A DNA stretch of 64,000 nt from Burkholderiaceae bacterium (GCA_018401615.1 JAGYKN010000004.1:1-64000); one strand, 5' to 3'. Shown: positions 40,602-45,600, numbered from the stretch's first letter. Numbers and translations are program-made. The notes: generated from the sequence alone by a model not told the origin.

Positions 40602-41935
40602 CTAACGGGGCTGCTGGTCGTCTCGCACCTGAATGCCCCGCAGGGCGAGTTGACGGTCAAACAAAGAGCGCCCAACAAAAGCCCGCGAGATCTGGCTGGT
40701 GGTGACCACGCTGAGCATGGCCAAGACTGTCCACTCGTAGCTGCCAGTGATTTCAAAGACCATGATGATGGAGGCCAGCGGCGCACCGATGACCGCAGCG
40801 ATGCAGCTTGCTGCGCCCAGCATGGCAAAGCTGTGGGGAGAATCCACCCCGAGACTCACCAGGCTGAGGTCAACGACTGATCCGACCATGGCGCCTAAAA
40901 AGAGGGCGGGCGCAAAGATTCCCCCGAAGAGGCCAAAGCCAACACAAGCACTGGTGGCAATGATCTTCAGAGCAATGAGCGCCAACACCAGGGCAATGCC
41001 CAGTTGCCCCGTGAGGGCCAGGTCAACCGAGGCCAGGCCTGGGCCCAAGAGATGAGGGAAGATGGGCGAGAGCAAGATGAGCAGGCCAGCCGGGATGAGG
41101 GGGCGCCAACGCAGCGGGATTCCCGACGACTTTGCAAATGCTGGCGCGCCCGTGACGGATTTGATGTAGATGATCGAGGCCACGCCCACGGCCACGCCCA
41201 CCACCAGGGCCAGGCCAATGCTGGCCAGGCCAAGCTCAGGAGTGGTGGCCGGGATGTCAAAGAGCCGCTCCTGACCGATGGCCAGTTTGGCTGTCCAGTA
41301 ACCCCCAAAGGCGGCAAGGATGATCGGCCCAGCCCCAAAGGCACCGAAACGACGGACGATGGCCTCGTGGGCGAAGACGGCAGCGAAGAAACAGGGTTTG
41401 GCGACCCAATCGCAGCCGCCGCGCCACTGCCAAGAACGATGTCTCGGAGGTGGAGGGCAAGGCGGCCGCCCCAGCGCCGAAGGGCGGCACTCAGACAGCC
41501 GCCAAAGTGCACCAGAGGCCCAAACATGCCCACTGAGGAGCCCCCGATGAGGGAGTTGAGGGCCAAAAAAGTTGATTGAAAACCGGCCTTTAGGTTTGGA
41601 TCCTCGTTGCGCTGGGCAGCCAAAATGAGGTCTGCGGGGCCATGGGGACGCCCGTTTTCGAGCATGGTGAGCACCTGACCGGCCACGAGTGCAGCCAGCG
41701 TCAGGCAGATTGCCACCGTGAGGTTGAACTTGCTGCCGAGGTCTGACAGCGAGAGGTCGAGCGGGATGGTGAGATCCCAGAGCGCGATCGCCCAGCGCAC
41801 GACTTCTAAAAATCCAATGGCCGCAAGACCAATCAGGACGCCGATCGCCAGGGAGGCAGTCATGACTGCCACGCGGGTGTCGAGTCCGTGGGGCTGGTCT
41901 TCGTTGGTCTGAGAGGTGTCGTTGGGTGTTTTCAT
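40602..41935 (-). pseudogene. ClC-family chloride channel, frameshifted
   Basis: The N-terminal half reads from ATG 41935 (RVAVMTASLAIGVLIGLAA, then SSVGMFGPLVHFGGCLSAALRRWGG and LGSGAAAAIG). It then leaves frame near 41410. The C-terminal half continues in another frame from FAAVFAHEAIVRRFG to SRAFVGRSLFDRQLAL at 40602. The break falls exactly at the conserved FNAP region that should precede AAVFAHE; the sequence there (GSPNPVS) is also missing residues, so more than one small change seems to have occurred. The gate glutamate motif (GREGP) reads GMFGP. Probably inactive; a sequencing error is the alternative. Confidence 0.75.
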
Positions 41936-42017: not shown

Positions 42018-42046
42018 TTGACCTTTTTTTAAAATTTACATATAGA
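42018..42046 (+). promoter_or_regulatory. Sigma70 promoter of the DUF1538 operon
   Basis: TTGACC at 42018-42023 and TATAGA at 42041-42046 are separated by 17 bases, most of them A and T. This is the best promoter match in the window. The predicted start near 42053 leaves a leader of about 34 bases with AGGGAGAAG ahead of the ATG at 42087. Confidence 0.85.
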
Positions 42047-42086
42047 ATCCGGGCAGTTAATTCCATCGGCCAGACAGGGAGAAGAA

Positions 42087-43892
42087 ATGCCTCGCTCGAT
42101 TCGCTTCGGAGATTACGTTCAGGCCATCACTGTGGATTCTGAACAGGTGAGTTACTCCAAACTCATGACCCGGCCGCTTTTTGACCACCTCGGCAATGAA
42201 GTGCCTCAGAAGCCCGAGAAAATGCGACTCGGCGGGATCGACGCCTACCGCCTCTTGCAACCTTATCTGTCGGTTCGTTTCATGGAGCAGGCCAAGGCCG
42301 TGGTGCCCCTGGCGGCTTATCTGGCGCTCTTCCAACTTCTCGTTCTCAACCAGAGCATCCGCGACTCGGCCACACTGGGGCTGGGGTTGCTGGCGGTGAT
42401 GGTCGGCTTGATGATCTTTCTTGAGGGCCTAAAACTCGGGCTCATGCCGTTTGGCGAGATCATCGGAAGCAAGTTGCCCTTAAAGCTTCCGCTGGTGGGG
42501 GTCTTGTTCATTGCCTTCTTGTTGGGCATCGGGGTGACCTTCGCGGAACCCGCCATTGGCGCACTCCAGGTTGCCGGTCAGATTGTCGACCCGAAGGATG
42601 CCCCCTACCTCTACACCCTGCTCAACGACCGGGTCGACGCGACCGTCCTGGTGGTGGGTGTTGGCGTTGGGATTGCAGCAGTGCTTGGCACCATGCGCTT
42701 TCTCTACAACTGGAGCCTCAAGCCGATGATCTACCTGAGCCTGGTCCCATGCGTGTTGCTCACGGCCTATGCCTTCGTGAATCCCGAACTTCGGACCATG
42801 ATCGGTCTGGCCTGGGACTGCGGCGCGGTGACCACCGGACCCGTGACGGTGCCCCTGGTGCTCGCGCTTGGCATTGGCGTTGCCACGGCAGGCGGTGCTG
42901 GCGAGGGCAAGCTCCAGGGTTTCGGCATCGTGACCTTGGCCTCGCTCTTTCCCATCATGGCGGTGCTTGGGCTTGCAATCTTCTGGCAGATGACTGTTCC
43001 CGTTGAGACCATTCTCGCCGAGGCTGCCGCAAAGCAGGCCAGCCTCGCGGCTGCCGCTGCAGCCACCGGGCCAGTCGACTGGTGGACAGTCTCGCCAGGC
43101 CTCGAGGTGGTCGGCGGCATTCGCGCCATTGTGCCGCTGGTCATCTTCCTCATGATCGTGCTCTACCTCGTGCTGCGTGAGAAGCTCCCCAATGCCTTCA
43201 TCATCTATTACGGCATTTTCCTCTCCGTGCTCGGCATGTGCGTCTTCAGTGTGGGCCTCACCTTTGGGCTCTCCAAGCTTGGCGACAGCGCTGGTGGCTT
43301 GGTGCCGGGTCTCTTTACTGCCATTGAGGCCATGCCCAATGCGCCGCTTTACTCGGCTGCGGTGGGCATCTTCATTGCCGCCTTGTTCGCCTGGATCCTC
43401 GGCTTTGGCGCGACCCTGGCTGAGCCCGCACTCAATGCACTCGGTGCAACAGTGGAAAACCTCACCAACGGGTCCTTTAAGAAGTCAATGCTGATGTACT
43501 CCGTCTCGTTTGGGGTGGCCATTGGTATCATGTTGGGGATCGTCAAGCTCATTTTTGACTTCGACATCTTGTACATCCTGATTCCCGGATACACCCTGGG
43601 TGTGGTGCTCACCTACCTGTCCACGGAAGAGTTTGTGAATGTCGGCTGGGACAGTGCTGGTGTGACCACTGGCCCGGTCACCGTGCCCCTCGTGCTCGCC
43701 ATGGGGCTCGGCTTTGGCAAGGCAGTTGGTGCGGTTGAGGGCTTCGGAATTCTGGCAGCCGCCTCAATCTGCCCGATTGTCTCCGTGCTCGCCCTTGGGG
43801 TCTATGTCCAGTGGAAAATCAAGCGTGAGAACAAGCAGGCTCAGGCCGAGGCAGACGCCGAGTCACGGGCAGTGGCAATGGCTGGCCGCTGA
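42087..43892 (+). CDS. DUF1538 family multi-pass membrane protein
   Basis: 601 residues with about twelve or more hydrophobic segments and an internal duplication. GVTFAEPAIGAL (about 149-160) recurs as GATLAEPALNAL (441-452), and the 13-residue string VTTGPVTVPLVLA recurs at 248-260 and 526-538, each time after WD. Two inverted or tandem halves are usual for secondary transporters, and the family (DUF1538) is uncharacterised. The repeated TGP motif in a broken helix could be a substrate or ion site; that is inference. It is followed by two PII-like genes, a context that in other systems (AmtB-GlnK, SbtA-SbtB) means control of a transporter by a small-molecule sensor. Confidence 0.85.
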   Translation: MPRSIRFGDYVQAITVDSEQVSYSKLMTRPLFDHLGNEVPQKPEKMRLGGIDAYRLLQPYLSVRFMEQAKAVVPLAAYLALFQLLVLNQSIRDSATLGLGLLAVMVGLMIFLEGLKLGLMPFGEIIGSKLPLKLPLVGVLFIAFLLGIGVTFAEPAIGALQVAGQIVDPKDAPYLYTLLNDRVDATVLVVGVGVGIAAVLGTMRFLYNWSLKPMIYLSLVPCVLLTAYAFVNPELRTMIGLAWDCGAVTTGPVTVPLVLALGIGVATAGGAGEGKLQGFGIVTLASLFPIMAVLGLAIFWQMTVPVETILAEAAAKQASLAAAAAATGPVDWWTVSPGLEVVGGIRAIVPLVIFLMIVLYLVLREKLPNAFIIYYGIFLSVLGMCVFSVGLTFGLSKLGDSAGGLVPGLFTAIEAMPNAPLYSAAVGIFIAALFAWILGFGATLAEPALNALGATVENLTNGSFKKSMLMYSVSFGVAIGIMLGIVKLIFDFDILYILIPGYTLGVVLTYLSTEEFVNVGWDSAGVTTGPVTVPLVLAMGLGFGKAVGAVEGFGILAAASICPIVSVLALGVYVQWKIKRENKQAQAEADAESRAVAMAGR

Positions 43893-43942
43893 GATGAAAC
43901 GGGCATCCGCAACCAACACTCTATTTCCAGAAGGAGCCACAC

Positions 43943-44323
43943 ATGGCCAAGCGTAAATTAGTCAACCTCACAGAAGTCTCCCTGATCACCTGCGTGGTTC
44001 AGAAGGGCATGGCAGACACCATTAATCAGTCCTTGCTCGATGCCGGTGTTCAAGGTGCAACCGTCCACCAGGGCGTGGGCACGGGAATTCGAGAAAAAAT
44101 GGGGCTCCTGGGGGTGGCCGTGGAGGTTGAGCGCGAAATCATAAATGTGTTGGTCGCCAAGGACCAGCTCACGCGTATTTTTGAGCGCATGTATCTTGCC
44201 GGGCGGCTCGACACCCCAGGCATGGGTTACATCTACGCCACACCGTTGGTTCAGGCGGCCACCTACATACCTGCCCACCTCATTGAGGGTCGTGGTCAAG
44301 GCGCAATGGGAGCCATGGCATGA
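43943..44323 (+). CDS. PII-like signalling protein, first copy
   Basis: 126 residues with a ferredoxin-like PII pattern: VSLITCVVQKGMADTINQSLLDAG (beta 1 and helix 1), GATVHQGVGTGIREKMGLLG in the T-loop position, VEVEREIINVLVAKDQLTRIFE (second half) and GRLDTPGMGYIYATPL in the B-loop and strand region. It differs from GlnB/GlnK: no Tyr51 uridylylation site can be seen. An AGGAGCCAC ribosome site precedes it. It overlaps the next PII-like gene by four bases, so the two may form a complex. Confidence 0.8.
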   Translation: MAKRKLVNLTEVSLITCVVQKGMADTINQSLLDAGVQGATVHQGVGTGIREKMGLLGVAVEVEREIINVLVAKDQLTRIFERMYLAGRLDTPGMGYIYATPLVQAATYIPAHLIEGRGQGAMGAMA

Positions 44324-44706
44324 GCACCCACTCATTTAAGACAATCCCAGAGTCGGTGGTGTTGGATTACACCCGTGAGATCACAGTGATTCTCTATGAG
44401 GGTGGCGCCGCCGAAATCGCGAAGAAACTCTTTGAGCGTGGCATCACCGAGGTCTTTTTCGATGCCGTCCGAGGCGCGCCCCTTGGCAAGGCCTCAGATT
44501 CGTCTGGTCTGCCTGAGATTCCAAAGACCGAGCAACTCCACGCCATTGTGTCGGCCGATCAGGCTGACTACATTCAGGGTCTCATCTACGAGGAGGCGGA
44601 GCTCTTTAAGCCACAACGCGGCATCGTGTTTGTCAACAAGCTGCTCATGTCCACTCGCAACATCCTTCCATCCGAGCAAGAGCTCGCAGCCCGGGCCGCG
44701 GCTTAA
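44320..44706 (+). CDS. PII-like signalling protein, second copy
   Basis: 128 residues. VVLDYTREITVILYEGGAAE, KLFERGITEVFFDAVRG, then KTEQLHAIVSADQADYIQGLI follow a similar alpha-beta order to the first copy but are quite divergent from it. The end (RGIVFVNKLLMSTRNILPSE) differs from classical PII. Start ATGA overlaps the stop of the first copy. Its ligand is unknown; ATP, ADP, c-di-AMP or another nucleotide are candidates by family analogy. Confidence 0.65.
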   Translation: MSTHSFKTIPESVVLDYTREITVILYEGGAAEIAKKLFERGITEVFFDAVRGAPLGKASDSSGLPEIPKTEQLHAIVSADQADYIQGLIYEEAELFKPQRGIVFVNKLLMSTRNILPSEQELAARAAA

Positions 44707-44736
44707 AAAAGCCCCCCTCTATAGGAGCCACACACC

Positions 44737-45468
44737 ATGAATGAAGCAACCAACATCCGCATTCAGAAAAACAAGCGCCGCATTTTTGATGCGGAGTCGT
44801 TTGTTCGATTCAACGTTGCCCAGGTGCTCGTTGGACGGTCTGCGATTGAAGAGAATCGCACCATGTCCTTTGAGTCCTTTACTGCCGAGGCAGGCGGCAA
44901 CGGCACGCTCTTGGCCGGCACATTTGATGATGTTGTTCGAAATAGGCTCGCAATACTGGAGCAGCTCGAGCCCACAACCGACGATGAGACCCGTTTTAAA
45001 ACGTCCATGACCAATCGGGTCCGGGTCGAGGCCATTGAGCGCCGTGCTGCCTACAACCGCAACCTCATTGACATCAATACCCGCCTGGCGGCGATCAACA
45101 AGACCATGGTCGAGATCAACGTCCTCATCACCAAGCATAACAACGAATTCTATGACCTCATCGATGAGGCCACCGACAGCAACGCCAGCTGGATTGACGG
45201 TGAGCTTGTGGCCCTCATGAAGGCTGCCACCCCCGACGAGAATGAGGAACGAATCACCGAAAACACCGCTCGAGTGACCGAGGTTCGCGAGAAGGCTGAG
45301 ACCAATCGAGGCAAGATCATGAGCCTCTATGAGCAGGAGGAAGACAGCCGACACGCCCTTGAGAAGGACCTCGAAGATGTCATGGCGCTGCGAGCCCAGA
45401 TTGTGGCCCTTCGCGAGAAGGTCTCTGCCAACCAGCATCGCGTGGCAGATGGCATTGCTCTGCTCTGA
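44737..45468 (+). CDS. Coiled-coil protein of unknown function
   Basis: 243 residues, soluble, no signal peptide or membrane segment. I do not recognise it. It is mostly helical: residues about 95-135 carry asparagines at near-heptad spacing (YNRNLIDINTRLAAIN and on), and the last 80 residues are a charged coiled coil (TEVREKAETNRGKIM, LEKDLEDVMALRAQIVALRE). It has an AGGAGCC ribosome site like the first PII-like gene and lies 30 bases after the second. A bidirectional terminator follows, so it is the last gene of the DUF1538 operon. Confidence 0.75.
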   Translation: MNEATNIRIQKNKRRIFDAESFVRFNVAQVLVGRSAIEENRTMSFESFTAEAGGNGTLLAGTFDDVVRNRLAILEQLEPTTDDETRFKTSMTNRVRVEAIERRAAYNRNLIDINTRLAAINKTMVEINVLITKHNNEFYDLIDEATDSNASWIDGELVALMKAATPDENEERITENTARVTEVREKAETNRGKIMSLYEQEEDSRHALEKDLEDVMALRAQIVALREKVSANQHRVADGIALL

Positions 45469-45492
45469 ATCGGGGTCGGGCCCGACCCAATG

Positions 45493-45518
45493 AAAAAGGC
45501 CGCCCTCGGGCGGCCTTT
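45493..45518. terminator. Bidirectional terminator
   Basis: AAAAAGGCCGCCC and its exact complement GGGCGGCCTTTTT are adjacent with a two-base gap (effective loop about four). Runs of A on one side and T on the other let it act for the plus-strand DUF1538 operon and the minus-strand HAD/DUF3429 operon, which converge here. Confidence 0.93.
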
Positions 45519-45519
45519 T

Positions 45520-45600
45520 TCACACCCCGAGGTAATTGAGGGCGGTGCTCAGCAGCAAGAGGACCACCGCGATCCATCCGAGCTTGGTGATGTATTTCAT
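45520..45600 (-). CDS. 26-residue hydrophobic peptide coupled to the DUF3429 gene
   Basis: The ORF reads MKYITKLGWIAVVLLLLSTA and a short polar-ended tail NYLGV. Its ATG overlaps the DUF3429 stop as TGATG, and its stop codon touches the bidirectional terminator, so it fills the transcript exactly. A positively charged start and one membrane helix are as expected of a small membrane protein. No homologue is known to me; the placement, not similarity, is the evidence. Confidence 0.5.
   Translation of the reverse strand: MKYITKLGWIAVVLLLLSTALNYLGV

Follow-up and report, generated by a model that had tools for sequence, protein, structure and literature searches.

A conserved gene unit of a fused DUF1538 membrane protein and two PII-like proteins: a candidate PII-regulated cation/proton antiporter

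PII proteins are known mostly as sensors of nitrogen and carbon, and some of them are encoded next to the gene of a membrane transporter. In AmtB-GlnK the PII-family gene lies beside that of an ammonium channel, and in the cyanobacterial SbtA-SbtB a dedicated, non-canonical PII-like gene lies beside the gene of a bicarbonate transporter, a precedent for a nucleotide-tuned PII protein acting on a transporter (PMC10117731). A further arrangement is that of NifI1 and NifI2, divergent PII genes of nitrogenase operons that always occur side by side and whose products show unusual oligomerisation (PMC8395244). On the side of the transporters, the one characterised pair found for DUF1538 (PF07556) is UmpAB of Halomonas zhaodongensis, a Na+(Li+,K+)/H+ antiporter that works as a heterodimer and makes E. 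coli KNabc tolerant of NaCl, LiCl and pH 8 (PMC5484666). A machine-learning study places DUF1538 in its table of key pH-adaptation families (PMC13255231), which fits a role in ion homeostasis. No literature linking DUF1538 to PII proteins was found by a search that had most subscription journals and all preprints outside its reach. Here we describe a locus in which the two families meet, in a stretch of 64,000 nucleotides (the window) from a Burkholderiaceae bacterium (GCA_018401615.1 JAGYKN010000004.1:1-64000). The contig that contains it belongs to a genome bin of 1.62 Mb with a completeness of 86%.

The locus consists of four open reading frames (ORFs) that run in one direction on the plus strand and span positions 42087-45468: T, a fused double DUF1538 membrane protein of 601 amino acids (42087-43892); PII-A, a conserved PII-like protein of 126 amino acids directly 3' of T (43943-44323); PII-B, a divergent and apparently degenerate PII-like protein of 128 amino acids (44320-44706); and CC, a predicted helical, coiled-coil protein of 243 amino acids (44737-45468). 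A first-pass annotation made from the sequence had presented these as four genes between one promoter and one terminator, a candidate transport and sensing system in which the two PII-like genes overlap by four bases. The shared direction and the overlap (ATGA, 44320-44323) are confirmed; as for the unit, T and the PII pair are conserved together, and CC falls outside this core, being confined to betaproteobacterial loci.

The annotation had also proposed that gene neighbourhoods be surveyed for the PII pair, and the survey, far from finding no repeated co-occurrence, found it throughout. Eighty long-fused relatives of T were taken from genome contigs of Pseudomonadota, Nitrospinota and Bdellovibrionota; two PII-like ORFs lie directly 3' of the DUF1538 gene in 77 of the 77 complete loci, adjacent or overlapping in every one of them, and in the three remaining relatives the contig ends at or just past T. 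A separate sample of 398 genomes from the window's phylum includes 126 that carry DUF1538; there all 12 long-fused loci examined have two PII ORFs and a single PII-like gene accompanies 41 of 44 loci of the split UmpA/UmpB or short-fused type; longer flanks, taken for 20 split or short-fused loci, likewise hold one PII only. The surveyed loci are not independent of one another. The long-fused, split and short-fused forms are separate clades, and the whole genome bin of the window has only two P-II matches, which together exclude chance adjacency. The co-occurrence of T with PII genes is thus far beyond chance, and T and the PII-like pair are supported as a conserved unit.

In comparison with UmpAB, T belongs to the same Pfam family, with PF07556 matching it in two stretches (E 8.7e-101, 336 bits against a gathering cut-off of 22.6), and has the same two homologous transmembrane halves, which here follow an N-terminal extension of about 55 amino acids. 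The UmpA model of the NCBIfam pair NF041627/NF041628 matches the N half and the UmpB model the C half. Unlike the two-gene UmpAB, however, T is encoded as a single fused ORF, and it is followed by two PII-like genes, whereas for the active UmpAB clone no PII gene is mentioned (PMC5484666), an omission that fits PII as a modulator dispensable for transport. The equivalog cut-offs of the two models (490 and 500 bits) are not reached by T, which scores 195 and 170 bits, nor by the split relatives L114, L120 and L121, at 330-391 bits. In a tree of the halves the long-fused N halves and C halves form one group each with 99% support, apart from UmpA, from UmpB and from a separate short-fused group, and T shares about 30% identity with the short-fused forms. 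T is, by this tree, a member of a deep sister subfamily of UmpAB-type proteins, and antiport by T is inferred from UmpAB. The short-fused DUF1538 form is itself a second one, seen with one PII gene in L117, L123, L128 and L129, and since the clades of its halves are distinct from those of the long-fused ones it points to a separate fusion event. The split and long-fused forms coexist in L182 (3241-8252), where a long-fused locus with two PII genes comes immediately after a split one of the UmpAB type with a single PII gene, on the same strand.

The identical segments that the annotation had noticed in the two repeats of T are indeed exact copies, VTTGPVTVPLVLA occurring at residues 248-260 of the N half (42828-42866, plus strand) and again at residues 526-538 of the C half (43662-43700, plus strand). 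An AlphaFold2 model of T (predicted local distance difference test, pLDDT, 83.6; predicted template modelling score, pTM, 0.83) contains discontinuous helices, and the two copies lie at the breaks of the helix pairs 236-248/254-268 and 514-526/532-547. In both halves of the model AEPA (E154, E446) and VTTGPVTVP sit at helix breaks, and D244, D522, E154 and E446, all of them acidic, show little or no variation, a geometry that would suit the binding of ions at these breaks. A Foldseek search of T against the PDB gave no match with E <= 0.001, and the rows of a VIA structure search were short helical matches, the best having a Z of 6.4 over 58 residues at a root-mean-square deviation of 3.0.

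The substrate had been left open by the annotation, with bicarbonate, an ion or a small acid as guesses. Distant though the homology to UmpAB is, the function is less open than that, as DUF1538 has a characterised Na+(Li+,K+)/H+ antiporter. Around the betaproteobacterial loci lie genes of the ClC, Ion_trans, TrkA/TrkH, Na_H_Exchanger and CitMHS families, with ClC at most about 7 kb away in nine relatives, a neighbourhood compatible with ion homeostasis; together with the cation/proton antiport of UmpAB, these genes make bicarbonate or a small acid less likely. One could keep the PII-gated design and yet have the long-fused DUF1538 proteins carry some other substrate, for instance sodium-driven bicarbonate or a small organic acid, on the pattern of SbtA, the best-known sodium-coupled carrier with PII-like regulation. 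That the long-fused halves form deep clades apart from UmpA and UmpB, and that T scores below the UmpAB equivalog cut-offs at about 30% identity, means that the substrate could have changed. Such a change is nevertheless unlikely when set against betaproteobacterial flanking genes that handle K+, Na+ and Cl-, against the sodium/proton exchanger that adjoins T in Nitrospinaceae, and against the acidic residues and VTTGPVTVP that T has in common with short-fused forms grouping with UmpAB-type proteins. The Nitrospinaceae gene lies upstream of T on the minus strand (L020, L024), and its product, of about 827 amino acids, is exchanger-like with a match to a domain binding cyclic nucleotide monophosphates (cNMP).

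The first of the two PII-like proteins, PII-A, is matched by the P-II family PF00543 (E 3.8e-6, 27.6 bits against a gathering cut-off of 25). An alignment of 78 sequences places its T-loop motif, GTGIREKMG in the window, at residues 46-54 (44078-44104, plus strand), with the pattern G.G[IV]R[ED][RK][ML]G present in 76 of the 78. For comparison of the nucleotide site GlnK served as the reference, both for its sequence and for the functions of individual residues. By that numbering T29, G35, G37, G87 and G89 are kept in 78/78 sequences, and Y51, K90, R101 and R103 are replaced in all of them. In GlnK the basic residues K90, R101 and R103 hold the nucleotide phosphates, and with these gone PII-A may have another ligand or none; the residues that remain make it plausible that a nucleotide, or a molecule like one, is bound without the canonical phosphate contacts. 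The window's PII-A has no C-terminal cysteine, and hence lacks the redox-active R-loop of SbtB, although in both systems adenine nucleotides are plausible ligands. SbtA-SbtB differs also in the family of its transporter and in having one PII gene against the two beside T. With a mean column identity of 56%, against 32% for PII-B, PII-A is by its alignment a strongly conserved, slow-evolving and distinct PII family, and the PII proteins of split loci form a group of their own with a different conserved loop.

PII-B has no Pfam match, remaining under the gathering cut-off of PF00543, and its kinship is visible in profile-profile comparison: hhalign relates it to PII-A with 99.4% probability (E 8e-22), and the best PDB match of its profile is a PII chain, 9p1x_H. 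The nucleotide site is mostly lost from it except for G89; like PII-A it is without the Y51, K90, R101 and R103 of GlnK, and the transporter encoded nearby is a DUF1538 protein, not an ammonium channel. The presence of two divergent PII-like proteins, as the annotation had it, is therefore upheld, by PF00543 for PII-A and by profile comparison for PII-B, which on these profiles is a fast-evolving and degenerate PII homologue. On our reading the sensor is PII-A, with PII-B its degenerate partner, and the two might mix in one oligomer, for which NifI1/NifI2 are the precedent as a co-located pair of divergent PII genes; 9p1x_H, moreover, comes from an entry with two different PII chains. The likeness ends with the surroundings, which are nitrogenase operons for NifI1/NifI2 and a transporter for PII-A and PII-B, and no nitrogenase genes were among the neighbour families examined around T. 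A serious contender, given somewhat less than an even chance, is that each of the two proteins makes a homotrimer of its own, with a job of its own, and that they do not mix, as might be expected of proteins that fall in separate groups and of which PII-B evolves much faster. It has to contend with genes that overlap or sit side by side in each complete locus and with the unusual oligomerisation of a co-located PII pair in the NifI1/NifI2 precedent (PMC8395244).

Taken as a whole, the locus is probably, with some reserve, that of a monovalent cation/proton antiporter gated by a dedicated PII protein, by analogy with the systems above. T would be a secondary antiporter of the DUF1538 family serving sodium, potassium and pH homeostasis, and PII-A its dedicated regulator, probably a trimer whose cleft, at the foot of the T-loop, takes up an adenine nucleotide. 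On the model of GlnK/AmtB and SbtB/SbtA, the conserved T-loop (GxG[IV]RERMGLLG) would dock onto T from the cytoplasmic side and throttle transport. PII-B would probably join PII-A in a mixed oligomer, or else act as an adaptor and so influence docking onto the fused protein, and CC, a helical accessory specific to its lineage, may be a scaffold. Several observations weigh against this proposal: neighbourhood evidence is guilt by association; PII-A lacks the phosphate-holding residues of GlnK; T stands in separate clades from the short-fused and UmpAB proteins, as described; and three split DUF1538 pairs (L178, L183, L187) have no PII-like gene nearby, from which it follows that PII is not always required. 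These three loci would also suit PII-like proteins that do not act on T at all and are merely co-transcribed sensors for some other enzyme or regulator. PII proteins in general have many targets, and SbtB acts on GlgB as well; DUF1538 is, however, the sole conserved partner of these PII genes across three phyla, the remaining neighbours differing from lineage to lineage, and a target elsewhere is correspondingly improbable.

What signal the PII pair might read is suggested by some of the neighbourhoods. Some 20 loci, most of them alphaproteobacterial, have a cyclase/cNMP-binding operon directly 5' of T, with genes for a cNMP-binding HlyD-like protein, a CHASE2 class III cyclase and one or two small cNMP-binding proteins, the cyclase and the small proteins being encoded in the direction of T; in L025 (1952-6961) and its relatives the HlyD-like cNMP-binder, the cyclase and two small cNMP-binders form one run before DUF1538. 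These loci are related and therefore stand for few independent events. Six more loci have a cyclase 3' of T, which shares the strand of T in L051 and L055 but not in L061, L062, L067 and L070, and 54 of the 80 loci have no cyclase nearby. The product of such a cyclase, cyclic AMP (cAMP), could be read by PII-A and so release or block the transporter, as for SbtB, itself a binder of cAMP, and both the upstream and the downstream cyclases agree with this. As a signal of the system in general it is distinctly unlikely. Besides the loci without a cyclase, class III cyclase had no match in the window's genome bin or in the congener G726, where class I was not searched, di-adenylate cyclase had none in any of four carrier genomes, and the cNMP-binding proteins could themselves be the readers. 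Since the window's bin has neither a class III nor a di-adenylate cyclase match (class I was not searched), cAMP is not to be assumed as the signal here; cAMP and cyclic di-AMP were set aside as general ligands, and cAMP is at most a lineage-specific signal.

If the proposal of a PII-gated antiporter is right, a dedicated PII family accompanies a cation/proton exchanger in three phyla, and this would extend the roles of PII proteins to the control of sodium, potassium and pH homeostasis, tied to the energy or second-messenger state of the cell. From its genes, the combination of T and a PII pair looks like an overlooked regulated system of salt and pH control. It also gives DUF1538, a transporter family still named for its 'unknown function', a testable partner in PII, and suggests that UmpAB, where assayed without its PII partner, may have been observed in an unregulated state. 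A more tentative and rather doubtful generalisation is that DUF1538 as a whole constitutes a broad, unrecognised class of nucleotide-gated monovalent cation/proton antiporters, each normally with its own PII, in which the long-fused forms would use a mixed PII-A/PII-B oligomer and some lineages would take cAMP from a cyclase in the same operon.

The last gene of the locus had been annotated as an unrecognised helical protein, and this is what it appears to be. CC has no family match above a cut-off, and AlphaFold2 predicts three long helices (3-75, 82-162 and 166-242; pLDDT 93.1), for which a fold search returned generic long-helix bundles only and no match with E <= 0.001. Its relatives, 17 full or near-full and one fragment at a contig end, occur in betaproteobacterial loci only; the few that are labelled gammaproteobacterial group with betaproteobacteria in the tree of T. 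CC was found in 5 of 399 genomes searched in the window's order, the fifth match being a fragment at a contig edge, and in the window's family T and CC were found in the same 4 of 13 genomes. That edge fragment (L137, 2-391, minus strand) has an internal stop, and its genome gave no DUF1538 match. CC is missing from the complete loci found beyond the betaproteobacteria, which rules it out as a core component; judged by the distribution of its relatives it is a betaproteobacterial accessory.

As to the signals around the genes, the 'near-consensus sigma70 promoter' claimed upstream of T proved to be a weak candidate. The element, TTGACC-17-TATAGA (42018-42046, plus strand), agrees with 9 of 12 consensus positions, is not conserved among relatives, and was not reported by a promoter scan in which T at the last -10 position is mandatory. 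No RNA element around the four genes reached Rfam thresholds. The terminator expected 3' of the genes is there, a strong intrinsic hairpin at 45491-45522 on the plus strand (-26.9 kcal/mol, z -7.18). On the other side, a divergent ClC-type chloride channel gene on the minus strand (40614-41917), a neighbour and not part of the core, is broken by a single frameshift near 41384-41408, which may be decay or an assembly error, the two being indistinguishable; tblastn aligns it with an intact relative at L003.

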